A stretch of DNA of 8,867 nt from Methanomassiliicoccales archaeon PtaB.Bin134 (GTDB lineage: Archaea; Thermoplasmatota; Thermoplasmata; Methanomassiliicoccales; UBA472): assembly GCA_002067045.1 (NCBI GenBank), contig MVPZ01000171.1, positions 1 to 8,867 of the forward strand. Direction: 5' to 3'. Of the stretch, positions 780 through 8,867 are shown in pieces. Position numbers and translations under genes: made by a program. Positions within the stretch are counted from its first letter, which is position 1; every line of letters begins with the position of its first letter. The notes below the pieces were generated by a model. It saw only the letters and a program-made list of their open reading frames with translations. It did no database searches and was not told where the DNA came from.

Positions 780-1982
780 GTGATCATTATGAGAGACCCC
801 ACCTCGTTCCTCAAGGAAGAGTATCAGGCCCTGGTCGACCAATCCCTGGACTGGAGGATAGCCAAGCTGCAGGGCGCCAGCACCCCCTGGTGCAATGTGG
901 ACGGGAAGAGGGTGCTGATGTTCTGCTCGAACAACTACCTCAGCCTTAGCAACCACCCTCACATGAAGGAGCTGGCCAAGAGGGCCGTCGACTCACACGG
1001 CGTGGGCTCCGGTTCCGTGAGGCCCATCGCCGGAACCATGGACCTGCACCTGGAGCTGGAGGAGCGGCTGGCCCGGTTCAAGCGCCGCCCCGCGTCGCTG
1101 GTCTACCAGACCGGCTTCGCGGCCAACTCCGGCCTCATACCCCAGCTGGTCGGCAGGGGCGACCTCATAATCTCCGACGAGCTGAACCACGGCAGCATCA
1201 TCGACGGGGTGAGGCTGACCTCTGCGGACAGGGCCATCTACAGGCACTGCGACGTGGACGATCTGGCTTTGAAGCTGGAGGAGGCGGAGCGGAAGCAGCC
1301 GCCGTACCGGCGCATCCTGATCATCACCGACGGGGTGTTCTCCATGGACGGGGACATGGCCCCCCTGGACCGGATCGCCAAGCTGGCCAAGGAGCATGGG
1401 GCCATGCTCTACGTGGACGACGCCCACGGCGAGGGCGTGCTGGGAGAGGGGGGAAGGGGCATCGTCTCCCACTTCGGCCTGGACCATAACAGCGTGCAGG
1501 TGGAGATGGGCACCTTCTCCAAGGCCTTCGGGGTGGTGGGCGGGCACGTGTCCGGTTCCCAGGACCTGCGCGACTTCGCCCTGAACCGCTCGCGCACCTG
1601 GCTGCTGAGCGGTTCGCACCCTCCGGCGGTGGCCGCGGCCTGCATAGGGGCCATCGATGTATTGGAGAAAGAACCGCAGCATGTCCGGAACCTGTGGAAG
1701 CGCACGGATTACTTCCGCAAGGCCATGAATGACCTGGGGTTCGACACCGGCGCCTCGGTCACCCCCATAATCCCGGTCATGGTGGGGGAAAGCGCCAAAG
1801 CCAAACGGCTAAGCGAACGGCTGTACCAGGAGGGGGTCTTCGCCCTGCCCATCGTGTTCCCCATGGTGTCCAAGGACAAGGCGCGGATACGCACGATAAT
1901 GAACGCCGCCCTGAGCGAGGAGGATCTGGACTTCGCCATTGGCAAGTTCGAGATCATCGGCAAGGAGCTGGGGATCATCTGA
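780..1982 (+). CDS. kbl: glycine C-acetyltransferase / 2-amino-3-ketobutyrate CoA ligase-like alpha-oxoamine synthase
   Basis: This is a complete PLP-dependent fold-type I enzyme of about 397-400 residues, the usual length for the family. Family members condense glycine with acetyl-CoA, or cleave 2-amino-3-ketobutyrate in threonine breakdown. Numbered from GTG 780, visible motifs are SNNYLSL (50-56), the cofactor-stacking His137 in DELNHGSIIDGVRL, DGVFSMDG (184-191), the PLP-binding DDAHG (213-217) and the Schiff-base Lys248 in GTFSKAFG. The DGVFSMDG segment and the C-terminal ELGII ending resemble KBL more than BioF. Biotin synthesis (AONS) or another acyl-CoA specificity cannot be excluded. 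The start is uncertain: GTG 780 gives MIIMRDP, ATG 789 gives MRDP. GTGATC at 780-785 matches the anti-Shine-Dalgarno and lies 3 nt before ATG 789, which slightly favours 789. No threonine dehydrogenase or biotin gene is adjacent. The weak TTATTC at 746-751 is the only promoter-like sequence in the upstream gap. Confidence 0.85.
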   Translation: MIIMRDPTSFLKEEYQALVDQSLDWRIAKLQGASTPWCNVDGKRVLMFCSNNYLSLSNHPHMKELAKRAVDSHGVGSGSVRPIAGTMDLHLELEERLARFKRRPASLVYQTGFAANSGLIPQLVGRGDLIISDELNHGSIIDGVRLTSADRAIYRHCDVDDLALKLEEAERKQPPYRRILIITDGVFSMDGDMAPLDRIAKLAKEHGAMLYVDDAHGEGVLGEGGRGIVSHFGLDHNSVQVEMGTFSKAFGVVGGHVSGSQDLRDFALNRSRTWLLSGSHPPAVAAACIGAIDVLEKEPQHVRNLWKRTDYFRKAMNDLGFDTGASVTPIIPVMVGESAKAKRLSERLYQEGVFALPIVFPMVSKDKARIRTIMNAALSEEDLDFAIGKFEIIGKELGII

Positions 1983-2225: not shown

Positions 2226-2283
2226 CCGGCTGTAACGCCTGGCAGGGTGCCAGCAGGCCTCGGCAGCCGGGGTTATTTTATAC
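2226..2283 (+). terminator. strong GC hairpin followed by T-rich tract (terminator or structured RNA)
   Basis: CCGGCTG at 2226-2232 pairs perfectly with CAGCCGG at 2264-2270, extended by one G-T pair (2233/2263). Inside it, GCCT 2237-2240 pairs with AGGC 2255-2258 and GGCA 2241-2244 pairs with TGCC 2248-2251 around a GGG loop. The alternative inner stem CTGGCA/TGCCAG (2239-2244/2248-2253) is also perfect. The structure is followed directly by the T-rich GGTTATTTTATAC (2271-2283). It could end transcription from the kbl-like gene 240 nt upstream, or end an RNA made within 1983-2225. Because it sits before the box A of the next operon, it is probably not part of that operon's leader. A role as a structured RNA element or dispersed repeat is also possible. 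Confidence 0.45.
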
Positions 2284-2291
2284 AAATATAT

Positions 2292-2299
2292 CTTATATA
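2292..2299 (+). promoter_or_regulatory. archaeal box A (TATA) candidate for the glutamate synthase operon
   Basis: CTTATATA is an exact match to the archaeal box A consensus YTTAWATA. It lies in the only strongly AT-rich stretch of the window and is preceded by an A-rich segment that could serve as a TFB-recognition element. Initiation about 25 nt downstream would fall near 2320-2326, giving a leader of about 140-145 nt before ATG 2467. A second, weaker TATA-like sequence is listed separately; either or both could be used. Confidence 0.5.
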
Positions 2300-2335
2300 A
2301 TAGTCATTTTTACGCCATATGACATAGGTTATTAA

Positions 2336-2364
2336 AAATTCTTAGAAATTCATCTAATAAATTC
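2336..2364 (+). repeat. three direct AAATTC repeats in promoter region
   Basis: AAATTC occurs at 2336-2341, 2346-2351 and 2359-2364. The first two are exactly 10 bp apart (one helical turn) and the third is 13 bp further on. They interleave with the TTAGA-N6-TCTAA inverted repeat. They could be regulator contact sites upstream of the glutamate synthase operon, or simply low-complexity AT-rich DNA. Confidence 0.3.
2342..2357. promoter_or_regulatory. inverted repeat TTAGA-N6-TCTAA, possible operator
   Basis: TTAGA (2342-2346) and TCTAA (2353-2357) form a perfect 5-bp inverted repeat with a 6-nt spacer, a size suited to a dimeric repressor. It lies just downstream of the start predicted from the box A at 2292 and just upstream of the second TATA-like site. 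The half-site/6-nt spacer layout resembles the NrpR nitrogen operator of methanogens (GGAA-N6-TTCC), but the half-site sequence differs. I therefore call it only a candidate operator. AT-rich DNA produces such repeats by chance fairly often. Confidence 0.25.
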
Positions 2365-2365
2365 C

Positions 2366-2373
2366 TTTAAAAA
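2366..2373 (+). promoter_or_regulatory. secondary TATA-like site
   Basis: TTTAAAAA lies at the downstream edge of the AT-rich island. Initiation about 25 nt further on would be near 2395, giving a leader of about 70 nt before ATG 2467. It matches box A less well than the site at 2292-2299, so it ranks second. Confidence 0.3.
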
Positions 2374-2466
2374 CAACAATCGTCTATCAGAGCCGCTTTA
2401 AAGGGCAGGATGGCCGCGAAGCCCGTTGGTTGTGCGAGAGGCCTTCCCTGCCGGGGAGAGATCGCA

Positions 2467-4425
2467 ATGGAATCTAATGTCGATGGTACAGCCGGGAGGC
2501 TGGACCATTTCAACGCCAAGATGGAGATGGCCAGCGGACTTGCTGGCGAACTTGAGGCCCAGCGCATACCTGATCTGAGGGTAATCTGCGGGGAGGGAGA
2601 GCTGGAGCTGTATCGCAGGGACCAGGCCGATGTCCCCCAGCTTCTGAAGGATGTGCTTATCGATCACCGTCCGGACGCGGTCGTCCAGCCCATGACCGGC
2701 GAGGCCGCGGTGGCGGTACTGGAGTTCGCCAAGGCCCGCGGGCTGGCTGTGGTTCCCCGCGGCTCGGGCTCCTCCCCCTTCGGGGGTTCCGTACCGGTGA
2801 ACGGAGGGATAGTGATGGACGCCGGGAACCTGGACCAAGTACTGAAGGTGGATTCCGCCAGAAAGACCGTGCAGGTGCAAGGCGGATGCCGCTGGGCGGA
2901 TGTGGACCACGCCCTGTCACTGCATGGCCTTCGTATCATCTCCTGCCCTTCCAGCCGGTTCTCCACCGTCGCCGGATGGATAAGCGGCGGCGGGTACGGG
3001 GTGGGCTCTCTGGGAGGTGGGCACCTGAGCGATATCGTCACCTCCATCGTCATGGCCACCCCTGGTGGCCTGATCACCCTCCGTCCGCCTCAGGAGGAGT
3101 TTATGGCGGTGTTCGGCAGCGAGGGGCAGCTCGGCATCATCGTAGAGGCGACCCTCAGGGTGAAGGACATAGACCGATCGTCCAGACCGCACCTGCTTCT
3201 ATTTCGGGAAATGGACGAGGCCGTGGAGATGGCGGAGCGGCTGCGCCGCCTCTCGCCCCTGCCGGAGGACCTCATCTACTTCTCCCCGGCCAAGCTCCGC
3301 TACGCCAACCGGCTGCTGCACGGCGATCACTTCGGGGAGGGGCACGCCCTCCTGGTCACCTCGGCCGATTCCGCCTCGGAGAAGGCGGTGGACGAGCTGC
3401 TGTCCTCGAGCGGATGCACGGAGCAACCGGAATACCAGGCCCGGCTGCTCTGGCATGAGCGCTACTTCCCCATGAAGCTGCGCCGGCTGGGACCGGGCAT
3501 GATGGGCGCGGAGGTGCTGGCGCCCGTTTCCAACCTCAAGGCCATACTGCATCGGGCCGAGGACCTCTTCCAGGAGTTCGACCTGGACCCCCTCTCCGAG
3601 GTGCATTTCCTGCAGGGAAGGGAGGCCTTGCTCCTTTGCTACTACGTCACCGACCAGGTGAACCAATCGGTCTACACCCTGGACGCGGCCAAGTCCATGA
3701 TAGCCACCTCCTCGCTGATCGGCCTGGGGGCCAGGCCCTACTCCCTGGGGGTGTGGAACAACTCCTTCGCCGACCATTGGCCGGAGGAGGAGCGGGAACG
3801 GCTAAGAAGGGCCAAGGAACGGCTGGACCCCAGCGGGGTCATGAACCCGGGGAAGTATTTCGGTCTCAGGGGGCGCATGTTCGGATTGGCCGGCATGGCC
3901 TTCAGTCCCATGGGATCCGGGAACGCCTTCAAGATCATGTCCCAGCTGCATGCACCTCTGGGAGTGGCGCTGCGTTCCCTCTCCTCCGTGTCCCGCAAGG
4001 TCATGGGACCGAAGGTGCGGGACCAGCTGGTGGTCATGGCCAACCAGTGCGCCATGTGCGGGGCCTGCGTCAGCGTCTGCCCCGCCTATGCGTTGACGAA
4101 CGATGAAAGGGTCACCGCCCGCGGCAAACTGCTGGCGGCCAAGGCCCTTAGCGAGGGGAAGGAGATCACCCGGGAGCATGCCCACCGGGCCTTCCTCTGC
4201 ATGCGGTGCAGGGCCTGCGAGCAGGTATGCCAGTCCAAACTGGACCTCATACCGGCATACGAGGAGCTGGAGGCTCGGCTGGAGAGGATACACGGCAGGG
4301 ACGAGTGGGAGATAGAGCACTTCGTACGCATGGCGGAGGTCAGCCCGCGCTACGAGGAGATGGTCTCCCGCGGCCTGGTGCTGGGCGCCCCGAGGAACTC
4401 CATGGGGGTCGAGCGCCGTGTATGA
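2467..4425 (+). CDS. FAD-binding GlcD-like oxidoreductase with C-terminal double 4Fe-4S domain
   Basis: First gene of the operon, 652 residues from ATG 2467. That start is preferred because GGGGAG (2453-2458) lies 8 nt upstream; ATG 2410 would add 19 residues resembling untranslated leader. Residues about 70-235 form a VAO-type FAD domain with the PP loop PRGSGSSPFGG (97-107) and a Gly-rich segment ISGGGYGVGSLGGG. LDPSGVMNPGKYFG (453-466) is the usual C-terminal signature of GlcD/lactate dehydrogenase relatives. Two clusters follow: C528, C531, C534, C538 and C578, C581, C584, C588 (both CX2CX2CX3C). Unlike larger fused dehydrogenases, it ends without a cysteine-rich CCG domain. The usual GHxGDGNxH and EHG active-site motifs are absent (SEVHFLQGREALL and RPYSLGVW occupy those regions), so a 2-hydroxyacid substrate is doubtful. 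By position it may feed electrons to the glutamate synthase subunits. Soluble; no membrane segment. Confidence 0.85.
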   Translation: MESNVDGTAGRLDHFNAKMEMASGLAGELEAQRIPDLRVICGEGELELYRRDQADVPQLLKDVLIDHRPDAVVQPMTGEAAVAVLEFAKARGLAVVPRGSGSSPFGGSVPVNGGIVMDAGNLDQVLKVDSARKTVQVQGGCRWADVDHALSLHGLRIISCPSSRFSTVAGWISGGGYGVGSLGGGHLSDIVTSIVMATPGGLITLRPPQEEFMAVFGSEGQLGIIVEATLRVKDIDRSSRPHLLLFREMDEAVEMAERLRRLSPLPEDLIYFSPAKLRYANRLLHGDHFGEGHALLVTSADSASEKAVDELLSSSGCTEQPEYQARLLWHERYFPMKLRRLGPGMMGAEVLAPVSNLKAILHRAEDLFQEFDLDPLSEVHFLQGREALLLCYYVTDQVNQSVYTLDAAKSMIATSSLIGLGARPYSLGVWNNSFADHWPEEERERLRRAKERLDPSGVMNPGKYFGLRGRMFGLAGMAFSPMGSGNAFKIMSQLHAPLGVALRSLSSVSRKVMGPKVRDQLVVMANQCAMCGACVSVCPAYALTNDERVTARGKLLAAKALSEGKEITREHAHRAFLCMRCRACEQVCQSKLDLIPAYEELEARLERIHGRDEWEIEHFVRMAEVSPRYEEMVSRGLVLGAPRNSMGVERRV

Positions 4426-5782
4426 ACGATACCATATCCGCACCGAGCCGACGCCGGGGAGGCATCGCCCGGTCCCCAAGTTCCTGGTGGACCGTGCGGA
4501 CAACTGCATGAACTGCGGCAGGTGCGAGAGGGCCTGCGTCTATGGTGCGCACAAGCGTGATCCGCAGGACCCCCGGAAGATGGCCGAGCCGGACAGCACC
4601 CTGTGCAAGAACTGCTTCCGCTGCGTGGTGGAGTGCCCGCAGCGGGCGCTCTCCATCAAGGTGAACGAGGAGTACAGGGCGCTGGGTCACGGCGTATGGA
4701 CACCGGTGAGGGTGACCACCATCTGGAACGAGGCGGAGAACGCCAAGATACCGGTGCTGGGCGCGGGATACCGTGGCAATTTCTCCGGACCGGGCTTCGA
4801 CGCCATGTGGACGGACATGTCCGAGATCGTGCGGCCGACCAGGGACGGCATCCATGGTCGTGAGTTCATCTCCACCTCGGTGGACCTTGGGCGCAAGCCG
4901 TCCCATCTCTCCTTCGATGCACGCGGGGGAATGACAACGATCATGCCGCCCATCATCGACCTGCCGGTACCCTTCATCCTGGACCTCTCCCGTTTAGAGG
5001 TCGACGATGAGCGGGCGAGGGGGGTGGCCATGGCGGCCTCTGATCTGCGCACGCTGCTGGTGATCCCCAAGGACCTCCTCCCCAAGGTGACGGATCGCAT
5101 CGCCCCGGAGCTGCTCGTTCCGGTCATCCGCGGACCGCAGGACGTGGAGGGGCTGCCATCCGGAGTGAGGATGGTGGAGATGGACGTCCATGAGGGATGG
5201 GAACGCGAACTTCGGGAGATCAGATCTGTTCGGCCAGGAACCCTGGTGGCGCTGAGGGTCCCCTCGTCGGCCGAACTTGCATCGACCGTGGACGACATGG
5301 CCAGGGAGGCGGACGTCCTGCATGTGCTATTCGACGAGGAGGGGAGGGACCGCTCCGGGGTCCACGCCCGGGACGCGCTGCGCCAGCTGCACCGGTACCT
5401 GGTGGCCGCGGGGCTCCGGGATGGGGTCACGGTGATCTCCTCGGGAGGGCTGGCCGCGGCGGAGATGGTGCCCAAGAGCGTCATCTGCGGGGCGGACGCG
5501 GTGACCCTGGAGAGGGTCTTGCTGGTGGCCGTGGGATGCCGGGCCTGCTCGGTTTGCGGGGAAGAATGCCCTTCCGGCCTGGCGAACGTGTCCGAGGAGT
5601 TCGTGCGGGGAAGGATCACCAACATGGGCAGCGCCTGGAGGGACCAGATGCTGGAGATGCTGGGGGCCATGGGGATCAAGGAGGTCCGGCGGCTCAGGGG
5701 CGAGACCGGCCGGGCCATATTCGAGGAGGATGCGCATCGGGACGCCTTCTCCAACATCGATGGAGGTGTCAGGATTGACTGA
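4418..5782 (+). CDS. ferredoxin-domain GltB2-like protein with degenerate FMN barrel
   Basis: A 454-residue protein starting at GTG 4418, 8 nt inside the previous gene, with GGGGGT (4404-4409) 8 nt upstream. Two N-terminal 4Fe-4S sites are seen: C30/33/36/40 and C63/66/69/73. The rest matches the next gene's product at both ends. Shared are YGAHKR after the first cluster, GxGYRGNFSGPGFD before the barrel, ISSGGLAAAEMV, and the ending SAWRDQMLEMLGAMGIKEVRRLRG. The middle of the barrel is about 50 residues shorter and lacks the glutamate synthase motifs TGEGG, AQGAKPGxGG and the SPFPxHxxYSxED loop, so FMN binding and catalysis are unlikely. The barrel-end cysteines form a regular C374-X2-C377-X2-C380-X3-C384-P, suggesting a 4Fe-4S rather than 3Fe-4S cluster. 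The frame is intact with normal codon use, so it is not a decaying pseudogene. Most likely a structural or electron-transfer partner of the next subunit. Confidence 0.8.
   Translation: MYERYHIRTEPTPGRHRPVPKFLVDRADNCMNCGRCERACVYGAHKRDPQDPRKMAEPDSTLCKNCFRCVVECPQRALSIKVNEEYRALGHGVWTPVRVTTIWNEAENAKIPVLGAGYRGNFSGPGFDAMWTDMSEIVRPTRDGIHGREFISTSVDLGRKPSHLSFDARGGMTTIMPPIIDLPVPFILDLSRLEVDDERARGVAMAASDLRTLLVIPKDLLPKVTDRIAPELLVPVIRGPQDVEGLPSGVRMVEMDVHEGWERELREIRSVRPGTLVALRVPSSAELASTVDDMAREADVLHVLFDEEGRDRSGVHARDALRQLHRYLVAAGLRDGVTVISSGGLAAAEMVPKSVICGADAVTLERVLLVAVGCRACSVCGEECPSGLANVSEEFVRGRITNMGSAWRDQMLEMLGAMGIKEVRRLRGETGRAIFEEDAHRDAFSNIDGGVRID
5762..5768 (+). promoter_or_regulatory. ribosome-binding site that fixes a TTG start
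   Basis: GGAGGTG is a full match to the anti-Shine-Dalgarno complement. With a 6-nt spacer it points to TTG 5775 as the start of the FMN subunit gene, inside the end of the preceding gene. A start at ATG 5760 would overlap this site, and ATG 5730 would lie 30 bases before it. A comparable GGAGGTG at 7250-7256, 5 nt before ATG 7262, serves the next gene. Confidence 0.7.
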
Positions 5783-7265
5783 GGGATGCGATAATGTTCC
5801 GGAGGCCTCGTGGGTGCCCTCGGAGAGGCTCAAGTTCGCCAACCGGTACGTGGTGGAGCGCAGTGACTCCTGCATCTCCTGCGGCCTGTGCGGGACGCTC
5901 TGCCCGTACGGGGTGCACAAGCGGATGGAGGGTCACGCGAAGGTGCTCCCCCCCTACAGCCAGAGGTGCATTGGGCCGGTATGCCGGAATAACGACTTCC
6001 ATTGCGTGACCCGCTGTCCCACGGGATCCCTGACCGTACGGCCGAGCGAGACCTTCGATGCCCTGGGGGATGTGCGCTGGACCACTGACATGATATTGGC
6101 CACCTGGCAGATGGCGGAGACCGGCGACCCGATCCCGCTGGACCATGTGGGCAACACCGGCCGCTCCGGAGGAGGCTTCGACCGCCTCAGCTTCAAGCTG
6201 GGAGAGGTGCCGGAGAATATCGATTACCGGGAATTCAACACCTCCATCGACCTCAACCGCCGGGGCGGCGAGCGGAGAAGGATCGCCATACCCCTTTACG
6301 GAGGGGGCATGTCCTACGGATCGGTGTCCCTGCACACCATGGTGGCCAGGGCCAAGGCCATGCGGGCCTGGGGGACCTACACCTGCACCGGAGAGGGTGG
6401 ATACCCTGCCGAGCTGGTGCCTTACAGTGAAAATGTCATCACCCAGATAGCCACGGGGCTGTTCGGGGTGCGGGAGGAGACCGTCAAGCGGGCCCCGATC
6501 ATCGAGTTCAAGTACGCCCAGGGCGCCAAACCCGGGCTGGGGGGACACCTGCTGGGGGACAAGAACACCCCCCTGGTGGCCAGGATGAGGGAGGCGGTGC
6601 CGGGCACCTCGCTGTTCTCACCGTTCCCGTTCCACAGCGTATACTCGGTGGAGGACCACAAGAAGCACCTGGATTGGATATCGTCCATCAATCCCCGGGC
6701 CCTGCTGTCTGTGAAGGTGTCCACTCCCAACGACGTGGAGATGGTGGCCATCGGCTCGTACTACGCCGGCGCGCACATCGTGCATCTGGACGGCGGGTAT
6801 GGCGGCACGGGCGCGGCCCCAGAGATCGCCAAGAAGAACATAGCCATGCCCATCGAGTTCGCCATACCAAAGGTGCATCGCTTCCTGACCAACGAGGGGG
6901 TGCGGGAGAGCGTCACCCTCATCGCCAGCGGGGGCATACGCACGGCCATGGACGTGGCCAAGGCCATAGCCCTGGGCGCGGACGGCGTGGTGGTGGGCAC
7001 CGCGGAGATGGTGGCCCTGGGATGCGTGCGCTGCGGCAACTGCGAGTCGGGGAAGGGTTGCCCCAGGGGCATAGCCACCACTGACCCGGTGCTGTACCTG
7101 CAGATGGACACGGACTGGGGAGCCCAGCGGCTGATCAACCTCTTCTCGGCCTGGCGCAAGCAGTGGTGCCAGCTGCTGGCCGCCTTGGGCATGAAGGACA
7201 TCACCGAGCTGAGAGGGCGGACGGACCTGCTGCGCTACGAACCGGACAGGGAGGTGGACGAATGA
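5775..7265 (+). CDS. gltB: glutamate synthase FMN/Fe-S catalytic subunit (archaeal GltB2 type) with ferredoxin domain
   Basis: Makes glutamate by reductive transfer of ammonia to 2-oxoglutarate at FMN. TTG 5775 is the chosen start: a perfect GGAGGTG (5762-5768) lies 6 nt upstream, and the 8-nt overlap copies the previous junction. ATG 5730 or 5760 would place the start before this site. Of 496 residues, 33-81 carry ferredoxin cysteines C33/36/39/43 and an irregular set C65-X4-C70-X6-C77-X3-C81. The barrel keeps GGGMSYGS (176-183), CTGEGG (204-209), AQGAKPGLGG (248-257), SPFPFHSVYSVED (282-294), SVKVST with Lys314, GGYGGTGAAP and IASGGIRT. Cysteines C417/420/423/429 lie where GltS binds its 3Fe-4S cluster. 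Bacterial GltS fuses this domain to an amidotransferase; here that is the next gene. An N-methylglutamate synthase-type role (MgsC-like) is a less likely alternative. Confidence 0.9.
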   Translation: MTEGCDNVPEASWVPSERLKFANRYVVERSDSCISCGLCGTLCPYGVHKRMEGHAKVLPPYSQRCIGPVCRNNDFHCVTRCPTGSLTVRPSETFDALGDVRWTTDMILATWQMAETGDPIPLDHVGNTGRSGGGFDRLSFKLGEVPENIDYREFNTSIDLNRRGGERRRIAIPLYGGGMSYGSVSLHTMVARAKAMRAWGTYTCTGEGGYPAELVPYSENVITQIATGLFGVREETVKRAPIIEFKYAQGAKPGLGGHLLGDKNTPLVARMREAVPGTSLFSPFPFHSVYSVEDHKKHLDWISSINPRALLSVKVSTPNDVEMVAIGSYYAGAHIVHLDGGYGGTGAAPEIAKKNIAMPIEFAIPKVHRFLTNEGVRESVTLIASGGIRTAMDVAKAIALGADGVVVGTAEMVALGCVRCGNCESGKGCPRGIATTDPVLYLQMDTDWGAQRLINLFSAWRKQWCQLLAALGMKDITELRGRTDLLRYEPDREVDE

Positions 7266-8867
7266 GCTTAGACCCGGAGATATTGACCAGGGCCAGGGAC
7301 TGGATGCCGGCATGCCGCCCCAAGGTGAGCAGGCTGGAGATGGAGGCCGAGGGCGGGTGCGGGGTGGTCGGATTGGCCGCCTCCGTGGGCCTGCCGGGTA
7401 GGCATTTCTTCGACCCCCTGATGCAGATGCACAACCGGGGCAACGGCAAGGGCGGCGGCATCGCCGCCGTGGGCCTGGACCCGGCCCAGATGCGCGTGCC
7501 CAGGGAGGTCCTGGAGGACCACTACCTGGTCCAGGTGGCCTACCTGGACCCATCCTGCCGCGAGGAGCTGGAGTCCGCGTTCATCGATAAGCGTTACGAC
7601 GTGCACACCAGATACCAGGTGGAGGAGAGCGACGACCCCCGGGTCCTGTCGGACCTGCCGGTGAGGCCCCCCCAGATATGGAGGTACTTCTGCCGGGCCA
7701 AGCCCGCTGTGCTGGCCGGTTTCGTGGAGGAGAGGGGGCTGCAGGGGCTGGAAGCCCGCAGGGCCGAGGACGAGTTCGTCAATCAGACCAGCTTCGCGGT
7801 CAACCACCTCTTTTACGTGGAGAGGGGGATGAAGGCCTTCGTGATGTCCCAGGGACGGGACATGATCATTATGAAGGTGGTGGGGTACGCGGAGGACGTC
7901 ATCCGATTCTACCGCCTGGAGGAAATGACCGCCCACGTCTGGATCGGGCATCAGAGGTACCCCACCAAGGGAAAGGTGTGGCACCCCGGCGGGGCCCATC
8001 CGTTCATGGGGCTGGACGAGGGGCTGGTCCACAACGGGGATTTCGCCAACTACCACTCGGTCAGCGAGTATCTGGCCCAGAAGAACGTGACCCCGCTGTT
8101 CTTAACGGACACCGAGGTTTCCGTCCTGCTGTTCGACCTGCTGAACAGGACCTACCGTTACCCGCTGGAGTACGTCATCGAGGCTTTGGCACCCACCACC
8201 GAGAGGGATTTCCACAGCCTGCCAGAGGACAAGAAGGAGATATATCAGGCCATACAGCGCACGCATATCCACGCCTCCCCGGACGGCCCCTGGTTCTTCA
8301 TCATCGCCCGCAACTGCTTCTACGACGATGGCAAATACCAGCTGATAGGAATCACCGACACGGCCATGCTCAGGCCGCAGGTCTTCGCCCTGGTGGAGGG
8401 GGAGGTGCAGATCGGCCTCATAGGTTCGGAGAAGCAGGCCATCGATTCCGCGCTGCGCTCCATCGCCGAGGACCACCCCTCAGTGCCCAGGCAGGCGGAC
8501 GTATACTGGAACGCCCGGGGCGGAAGCCACACCGACGGCGGGGCCTTCGTGTTCACCCTGGAGAAGGGGGACGGAAGGAGATGGTTGAGCTGCAGCAACA
8601 AGTTCGGGGCGCCGGTGAGCCTGGACCTGACCTATGATCGGCAGGGCGACCTTTCGCTAGCGGAACCGCTGAGCGCCGGCGGCGACGATGCCATGATGCA
8701 AGGCAGCGGCGACGAGGCCTTCCAACGGTTCTTATCAGCCCTGGATTCCATGGACGCGGGGTCCTTCCAGGAGATGATGCGTTCCGCGGTGGCCCGGGCC
8801 TCGAAGGGGGAGGCGGACCTCCGGGAGATGCTCCGGCTCATGACCCTGATCATCGACCGCAGGTACG
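7262..8867 (+). CDS. glutamate synthase class II glutamine amidotransferase subunit (3' end missing)
   Basis: Starts at ATG 7262, overlapping the previous stop by 4 nt (ATGA), with GGAGGTG (7250-7256) 5 nt upstream. It runs 535 codons to the right edge without a stop. It hydrolyses glutamine to supply ammonia to the FMN subunit. The catalytic Cys is residue 33 (GGCGVVG), preceded by a 32-residue segment that is probably cleaved, as in bacterial GltS, to expose an N-terminal Cys. Other Ntn-amidotransferase motifs are HNRGNGKGGG (57-66), WIGHQRYPT (227-234), AHPF (245-248), the oxyanion-hole HNGD (257-260) and TDTE (282-285). About 160 residues separate the HNRG and GHQRYPT motifs, a large insertion relative to PurF-type enzymes. 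Residues after about 450 form a low-similarity tail with a helical, Met-rich end. Whether this tail leads into a GXGXG domain lies outside the window. MgsA/GlxB-like function is an alternative. Confidence 0.88.
   Translation, partial: MSLDPEILTRARDWMPACRPKVSRLEMEAEGGCGVVGLAASVGLPGRHFFDPLMQMHNRGNGKGGGIAAVGLDPAQMRVPREVLEDHYLVQVAYLDPSCREELESAFIDKRYDVHTRYQVEESDDPRVLSDLPVRPPQIWRYFCRAKPAVLAGFVEERGLQGLEARRAEDEFVNQTSFAVNHLFYVERGMKAFVMSQGRDMIIMKVVGYAEDVIRFYRLEEMTAHVWIGHQRYPTKGKVWHPGGAHPFMGLDEGLVHNGDFANYHSVSEYLAQKNVTPLFLTDTEVSVLLFDLLNRTYRYPLEYVIEALAPTTERDFHSLPEDKKEIYQAIQRTHIHASPDGPWFFIIARNCFYDDGKYQLIGITDTAMLRPQVFALVEGEVQIGLIGSEKQAIDSALRSIAEDHPSVPRQADVYWNARGGSHTDGGAFVFTLEKGDGRRWLSCSNKFGAPVSLDLTYDRQGDLSLAEPLSAGGDDAMMQGSGDEAFQRFLSALDSMDAGSFQEMMRSAVARASKGEADLREMLRLMTLIIDRRY

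Follow-up and report, generated by a model that had tools for sequence, protein, structure and literature searches.

The window analysed here, a stretch of 8,867 nucleotides (nt) from the Methanomassiliicoccales archaeon PtaB.Bin134 (contig MVPZ01000171.1), carries four overlapping genes that we refer to as FAD, PSG, GLT and GAT (Table 1). We propose, with a probability of about 65%, that they encode a split glutamate synthase which serves ammonia assimilation with a donor other than NADPH and in which the FAD subunit feeds electrons via PSG to the FMN of GLT. The original prediction had read four overlapping genes with these domains from the letters of the sequence, and Pfam matches, coordinates and third-position G+C (0.83-0.86 for FAD, PSG and GLT and 0.89 for GAT, as expected for coding sequence) bear it out. 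FAD and PSG overlap by 8 nt, PSG starting with GTG; PSG and GLT overlap by 53 nt if GLT starts at 5730 or by 23 nt if it starts at 5760; GLT and GAT share the 4 nt ATGA, and the GAT reading frame is still open at the window end (8867).

By its predicted domains and residues, the four-gene system is a glutamate synthase (GOGAT). GLT matches the Pfam family Glu_synthase at E 5.4e-94 and aligns to Azospirillum GltS (1ea0) at E 2.5e-54. Its active-site motifs are invariant or nearly so in 52 aligned rows: the KYAQGAKPG loop, its Arg and GGTGAAP are invariant, as are the Lys and Arg of the 2-oxoglutarate loop, presumably the residues that contact 2-oxoglutarate in GltS. Within this loop, GLT has GGHLL instead of the Azospirillum GGQLP. 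Across an alignment of 61 sequences, the GAT residues C33, R59, H257-D260 and T282-D283 show a conservation of at least 93%. The amidotransferase gene as first described can also be extended, as full-length GAT ends in a GXGXG (GltB3) domain in two compared loci (L001 and L060), a part that lies past the window end here.

Up to eight Fe-S sites had been counted in the original prediction, and cysteine conservation supports that number of putative sites, with two in FAD and three each in PSG and GLT. All eight Fe-S Cys of FAD are invariant (13 aligned rows), as are the eight ferredoxin Cys of PSG (63 rows) and of GLT (52 rows); the extra four-Cys site is kept at 97-98% in PSG and at 96-98% in GLT. 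At the position of the GltS [3Fe-4S] site three Cys of GLT align and a fourth is added at 96%, so that the cluster there may be [4Fe-4S]. FAD- and FMN-type folds, in keeping with the two flavins proposed alongside, were likewise recovered.

PSG is a full-length paralog of GLT that is without the 2-oxoglutarate loop and gives a weak Glu_synthase match. Twenty-four of its 50 invariant columns fall within residues 112-149, yet the single-chain model leaves this stretch unfolded (pLDDT <50 at 113-146), a combination that fits a partner-binding surface. PSG and GLT occur as a single chain in MAGs (metagenome-assembled genomes) of Acidobacteria (L024:9968-12838), Armatimonadetes (L050:8610-11477) and Deltaproteobacteria (L018:9965-12907), and these fusions fit a 1:1 association.

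The FAD subunit consists of FAD_binding_4 and FAD-oxidase_C domains followed by a C-terminal two-cluster Fe-S domain. Structure prediction gives a VAO/FAD-oxidase_C fold, and the first ~465 residues resemble LctD (7qh2), LDHD and D2HGDH. The HxGDGNxH and GEHG motifs were found in none of 48 FAD homologs, nor in the six from loci L126-L131; in the window protein the second His of the former is replaced by A387 and the Glu-His of the latter by P424-Y425, as paired in alignments. Lactate and 2-hydroxyglutarate, put forward originally as candidate donors, are therefore unlikely because the metal/base motifs of D-2-hydroxyacid dehydrogenases have been lost, and the LDHD-like fold may host a different chemistry.

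To define the conservation of gene order, one genome per species was searched using patterns derived from the PSG of the window, which yielded 65 loci, or 66 with the window (L and G numbers denote loci and genomes of the compared relatives, the genomes being MAGs). Such a scan misses remote PSG sequences as well as relatives that have no PSG, and PSG is constant in these loci by construction. Because the greedy calling of ORFs (open reading frames) retained some antisense ones, tallies were taken from stop-to-stop searches. The conserved four-gene order expected in relatives was found: GLT follows PSG or is fused to it in 62 of 66 loci, the other four having 15 nt or less of contig left, and GAT was found in 51 of 66, most misses lying near contig ends. 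The nearest relatives are Methanomassiliicoccales MAGs with a PSG identity of 66-71%.

The reverse search, with FAD alone, gave FAD-like matches at E 1e-20 in 77 of 292 Thermoplasmatota genomes; only five exceeded 600 bits (next best 179), and all five of these orthologs lie directly upstream of PSG. PSG itself (E 1e-25) is present in 23 of the 292 genomes, five with FAD and 18 more distant. FAD stands beside PSG in 23 loci in total, always on the same strand with a gap of -17 to +28 nt, a number that is itself no test of adjacency as these loci were defined by it and mostly fetched via PSG. Within the window's group (the window, L001-L009 and L120-L123) the gap is exactly -8 nt in 13 of 14 loci; GLT is absent at two FAD-type loci, L009 and L131. 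In a quick GLT tree of 67 rows, the 11 FAD-type rows form one clade (SH-aLRT 99) next to a clade of stand-alone operons (94) and the MetF-type rows are spread, which suggests a single recruitment of FAD for these 11 rows; the tree leaves out L010, L024, L050 and L126-L131, and L115 and the outgroup are flagged as long branches. Among 148 Armatimonadota genomes, PSG at E 1e-40 was found in G009 alone.

A link to nitrogen assimilation comes from a second archaeal phylum, that of the genome of L010, which we took as separate since its genome set shares none with the first. PSG is present in 9 of its 148 genomes, and seven contexts were compared (L010 and L126-L131, with G482 and G491 left out). 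In six of the seven, glnA lies directly upstream of FAD (L010 and L126-L130; Pfam on L126), and L129 additionally carries glnK and amtB. GAT lies behind GLT in L126, L128 and L130; in L010 it is fragmented, and in L127 it is off the contig. In L131 FAD and PSG are paired without GLT or GAT, and the strong GltB2 of that genome is on another contig. Judged by gene content, the glnA-FAD-PSG loci of this phylum are a GS-GOGAT (glutamine synthetase-glutamate synthase) operon. Five of the six genomes with glnA-FAD-PSG have no strong match to glutamate dehydrogenase (G007, G483, G524, G535 and G545), unlike 29 of the 31 genomes of the glutamate dehydrogenase survey, which do; the sixth, G517, has a strong match, and in G545 a GltD-like match is absent altogether. 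Within the fetched stretches of the 66 loci, AmtB, GlnK or GlnA was found in 18 of the 53 loci without FAD and in one of the 13 with it.

The genes and their order, their conservation, the cofactor motifs, the predicted folds and the operon linkage with glnA are shown; we infer complex formation, the direction of electron flow and the identity of the donor, and the proposed route would run as follows. Once a 32-residue propeptide is removed, GAT would hydrolyse glutamine with Cys33 as its predicted catalytic residue and pass the ammonia to GLT, whose FMN barrel would condense it with 2-oxoglutarate and reduce the resulting imine, yielding glutamate. The GlcD-like FAD subunit would take two electrons from a donor and hand them one by one to its own two [4Fe-4S] clusters, from which they would travel through the PSG clusters and the GLT clusters to the GLT FMN. 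PSG, a duplicated GltB2 that has lost the loop and kept two ferredoxin clusters and the C-terminal cluster site, would serve as relay and docking subunit. The 2-oxoglutarate/glutamate couple lies near -0.12 V, methyl-tetrahydrofolate near -0.2 V and NADH at -0.32 V, so that many donors would be allowed, with room for bifurcation.

Across the 66 loci, the input position is occupied by FAD in 13, by MetF in 48 and by MvhD without a MetF match in four, with nothing in one (L065, at a contig start). MetF loci mostly also have MvhD and MetV, the domains being confirmed on L060; in L017 and L064, MetV and MetF lie behind GAT. The bacterial core with MvhD-MetV-MetF (L060:3251-21921 and 47 other loci) has amtB, glnK or glnA upstream in some cases, and HdrC and HdrB lie downstream in 10 loci. 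It is possible that the bacterial MetF-type loci link one-carbon redox chemistry to glutamate synthesis. Nine of ten fetched FAD-less Thermoplasmatota contexts have PSG-GLT-GAT without any seed input gene (L112-L114, L116-L119, L124 and L125), and in the five of these that were aligned PSG has lost most ferredoxin Cys together with its C-terminal cluster site, and GLT its ferredoxin part (Pfam on L113). L115 (1128-10097) carries PSG and GLT as one chain, then GAT, EtfB, an EtfA fused to a ferredoxin and a CCG/Fe-S protein, by its gene content an input variant of the ETF (electron-transferring flavoprotein) type. The same core thus stands with different inputs: FAD, MvhD-MetV-MetF, EtfBA or none that is recognised. 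Taxon labels of matching records place it in at least 10 phyla. Tentatively, and with somewhat less than even confidence, we suggest that PSG-GLT-GAT is a modular glutamate-synthase platform in which the duplicated, loop-less GltB2 is a common electron socket into which lineage-specific donor modules plug: the GlcD-type FAD/Fe-S protein here, MvhD-MetV-MetF (accompanied in some by Hdr genes) or EtfBA. Such an arrangement would give ammonia assimilation a direct coupling to redox steps of C1 or carbon metabolism, possibly via flavin-based bifurcation.

Several observations weigh against a dedicated FAD-PSG-GLT route. FAD is just one of several input modules beside the core, which qualifies the original reading; that reading is otherwise favoured by the conserved gene order, the full GltS catalytic set, the lack of GltD in the operon, the eight Fe-S sites, the FAD- and FMN-type folds and the glnA linkage. 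Homologs that are 28-30% identical to FAD, Fe-S part included, lie away from PSG in G010, G044, G050 and G051 (168-179 bits), and the wider FAD/Fe-S family extends beyond the PSG operon. The role of PSG, as judged from its sequence relatives, cannot be that of an Fe-S relay alone, because the stand-alone PSG-GLT-GAT operons have neither FAD nor most Fe-S sites, and the low-confidence stretch of its model could also stem from a cofactor missing in the prediction or from an alignment of little depth (72 rows). L034 has no GAT in the ~7 kb after GLT (8.7 kb after PSG), and L129 has none beside GLT in the 2.1 kb to the contig end, where ORFs lie on the opposite strand. A second strong GltB2 is present in six of 18 FAD-type genomes (G001-G004, G071 and G517), and in L007 (genome G006) a pair resembling Nfn, with a GltD-like subunit and a PyrK-like partner, lies ~190 nt behind GAT. 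Absences in general are weak evidence in MAGs, which may be incomplete.

One alternative is that PSG-GLT-GAT is an ordinary ferredoxin-dependent glutamate synthase, with FAD as a flavin dehydrogenase in its own right that has only the operon in common with it or serves to reduce free ferredoxin. The ferredoxin-like domains of PSG and GLT, the D-lactate-dehydrogenase-like fold of FAD, its distant relatives away from PSG and the nine Thermoplasmatota contexts without seed input genes would all be accommodated by it. It sits poorly, however, with the adjacency to PSG of all five FAD orthologs, the constant 8-nt overlap in the window's group and the FAD-PSG pair that persists in L131 where GLT is elsewhere. 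The loss of 2-hydroxyacid dehydrogenase motifs in 48 of 48 FAD homologs also argues against a separate dehydrogenase of that kind, and the five stand-alone operons are without the ferredoxin domains as well. We regard this alternative as unlikely, though a serious contender.

Less probable still is an electron-bifurcating (or confurcating) glutamate synthase, in which one branch would reduce the imine and the other ferredoxin, with FAD or a PSG flavin as the branch point. The eight Fe-S sites, together with two or three potential flavin sites, would suit such an enzyme, FAD has a fold like that of LctD in the Ldh-EtfAB complex (7qh2), which bifurcates, and related cores occur with EtfBA or MvhD-MetVF, some with Hdr genes. 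Yet no Hdr or Etf gene is among the window genes, the HdrA-seed matches behind the core of L005 and L007 (226-230 bits) correspond to the Nfn-like GltD homolog, and the match in L004 is weak (47 bits).

The count of GltB2 genes bears on a further alternative. Taking as strong a PF01645 match above 190 bits, 12 of 18 FAD-type genomes have no second strong GltB2 (the 18 being G001-G009, G071, G092, G257, G271, G483, G517, G524, G535 and G545; G511 was left out of the count, its GltB2 being on another contig), and in the FAD-less Thermoplasmatota genomes with PSG the sole strong GltB2 is the one beside PSG (18 of 18). The second GltB2 of G001-G003 belongs to a conventional split GltB1/GltB2/GltB3 set (L066-L068; L067:560-4073, Pfam on L067), and the FAD-type operon is thus not the only GltS of these genomes. 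That the core makes a product other than glutamate, by an N-methylglutamate-synthase-like or other amidotransfer reaction, and leaves ammonia to the conventional GltS would fit this second set, the GGHLL motif and the omission of PSG from such portions of GltS descriptions as were found, but is very improbable given the core's position as sole strong GltB2 in most genomes, the invariant Lys and Arg of the 2-oxoglutarate loop, the glnA, glnK or amtB genes near the core in non-FAD and second-phylum loci, and proA-proB downstream in all five nearest loci.

The original prediction had found no GltD. This stands for the window, where neither GltD nor Fer4_20 is among the gene matches (the window ends inside GAT), and for the downstream stretches of the five nearest loci, but not for L007 with its Nfn-like pair, which comes close to the downstream gltD named in the original prediction as counting against it, although here a PyrK-like partner goes with it; in L005 such a pair lies ~2.5 kb behind GAT. 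A GltD hidden near the operon was considered for G001-G003 and rejected: each has one Fer4_20 protein, which lies elsewhere in the genome and which a PyrK-like gene adjoins in the two read (L086 and L087).

Table 1. Features of the window, with coordinates counted from its first letter.
Feature	Coordinates	Strand	Remarks
Methyltransferase gene	to 722		upstream part of window
BioF/Kbl-family PLP enzyme (BioF/Kbl-type acyltransferase) gene	780-1982		upstream of FAD gene
AT-rich intergenic stretch	2275-2466	+	presumed promoter region of the four-gene unit (presumption only; letters read directly)
FAD	2467-4425	+	VAO/GlcD-like FAD-binding domain, FAD-oxidase C domain, C-terminal 2x[4Fe-4S]; proposed electron-input subunit
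PSG	4418-5782	+	N-terminal 2x[4Fe-4S] ferredoxin, degenerate GltB2 (FMN-type TIM barrel), CxxCxxCxxxC site; proposed relay/docking subunit
GLT	5730 (or 5760)-7265	+	N-terminal 2x[4Fe-4S] ferredoxin, GltB2 FMN/2-oxoglutarate synthase domain, 4-Cys cluster site
GAT	7262-8867	+	class II glutamine amidotransferase (GltB1), Pfam GATase_6; cut by window end

The FAD start was set because the closest homologs are 652 aa long, which matches a start at 2467; a longer ORF starting at 2410 is not supported on the same ground. A terminator-like hairpin occurs at 2256-2274 (single instance; shuffle mean 0.4), the promoter and terminator scans of the window gave one match each, barely exceeding the shuffle means, and no RNA family matched anywhere in the window. 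The BioF/Kbl-type gene, ~485 nt before the FAD gene, is shared with L001, L122 and L123 and was not found in L002, which has little upstream sequence, or in L003. Behind GAT, one or two short genes precede what we take from their Pfam families to be proA and proB, present in all five nearest loci with downstream sequence (L001-L003, L122 and L123). The short genes of L001 have no Pfam match; in L003, where they and proA-proB span 15494-19782, they encode uncharacterised proteins of 242 and 182 aa, the 182-aa protein recurring with proA-proB in all five loci and the 242-aa protein in four. The proA and proB products use glutamate.

Glutamate synthase is one entry point of nitrogen in many anaerobes, and how it is powered in archaea and syntrophic bacteria without GltD is unsettled. 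The system described here puts forward one particular, conserved protein for electron input and draws attention to a degenerate subunit that has been overlooked; proteins now labelled only 'FAD-binding protein' and 'glutamate synthase-related protein' would, if our proposal is true, become subunits of one nitrogen-assimilation enzyme. With one-carbon or ETF modules taking the input position in relatives, the donor question becomes directly testable.

Among known systems, the bacterial NADPH-dependent GltBD (Azospirillum 1ea0 and 6s6s) has the same FMN synthase, class II GATase and GXGXG domains, and the route proposed here shares its FAD-to-Fe-S-to-FMN logic as given in the available part of PMC8097209. 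Unlike it, the window system has no GltD, spreads the catalytic chain over two genes, adds PSG, and carries ferredoxin domains on PSG and GLT and an extra Cys at the 3Fe-4S site. Etf-linked LctD (7qh2), LDHD and D2HGDH share the predicted fold of the FAD N-terminal part, whereas FAD has replaced the HxGDGNxH and GEHG residues and added the C-terminal two-cluster domain. MvhD, MetV and MetF of the Moorella MetVF-MvhD-HdrABC methylene-tetrahydrofolate reductase occupy the FAD position in bacterial relatives; that module is absent from the window, and the portions available of PMC6085437 and PMC5736913 mention no GltS genes in the Moorella complex. In the open full-text literature, as distinct from subscription papers, and as far as the texts were accessible, we found no description of PSG or of a GltS associated with either a GlcD-like protein or a MetVF module; the accessible portions of PMC9012536, PMC6085437, PMC2702500, PMC5736913, PMC7325909, PMC3448663, PMC3087415, PMC4374699, PMC7117923 and PMC8097209 describe neither PSG nor such a GltS. 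The nearest precedent for an exchanged input, going by the sections available, is the putative F420-dependent GltS of methanogens (PMC3448663, PMC3087415, PMC9012536), whose forms FGltS(I) and FGltS(II) are likewise archaeal GltS with GltD replaced by a flavin/Fe-S subunit. Its input is an FrhB/Fsr-N-type F420H2 dehydrogenase subunit as opposed to the VAO/GlcD-type FAD protein here, and no degenerate GltB2 is mentioned in those sections of PMC3448663 and PMC3087415. No FrhB-type subunit is among the window gene matches shown, the sole touch being FpoF at 18.6 bits (cut-off 444) on the Fe-S part of FAD. Judged by its genes, the window system thus falls outside NADPH-GltS on GltD and outside F420-GltS on FrhB; what is new is the PSG subunit and the FAD input on an otherwise known type of glutamate synthase.

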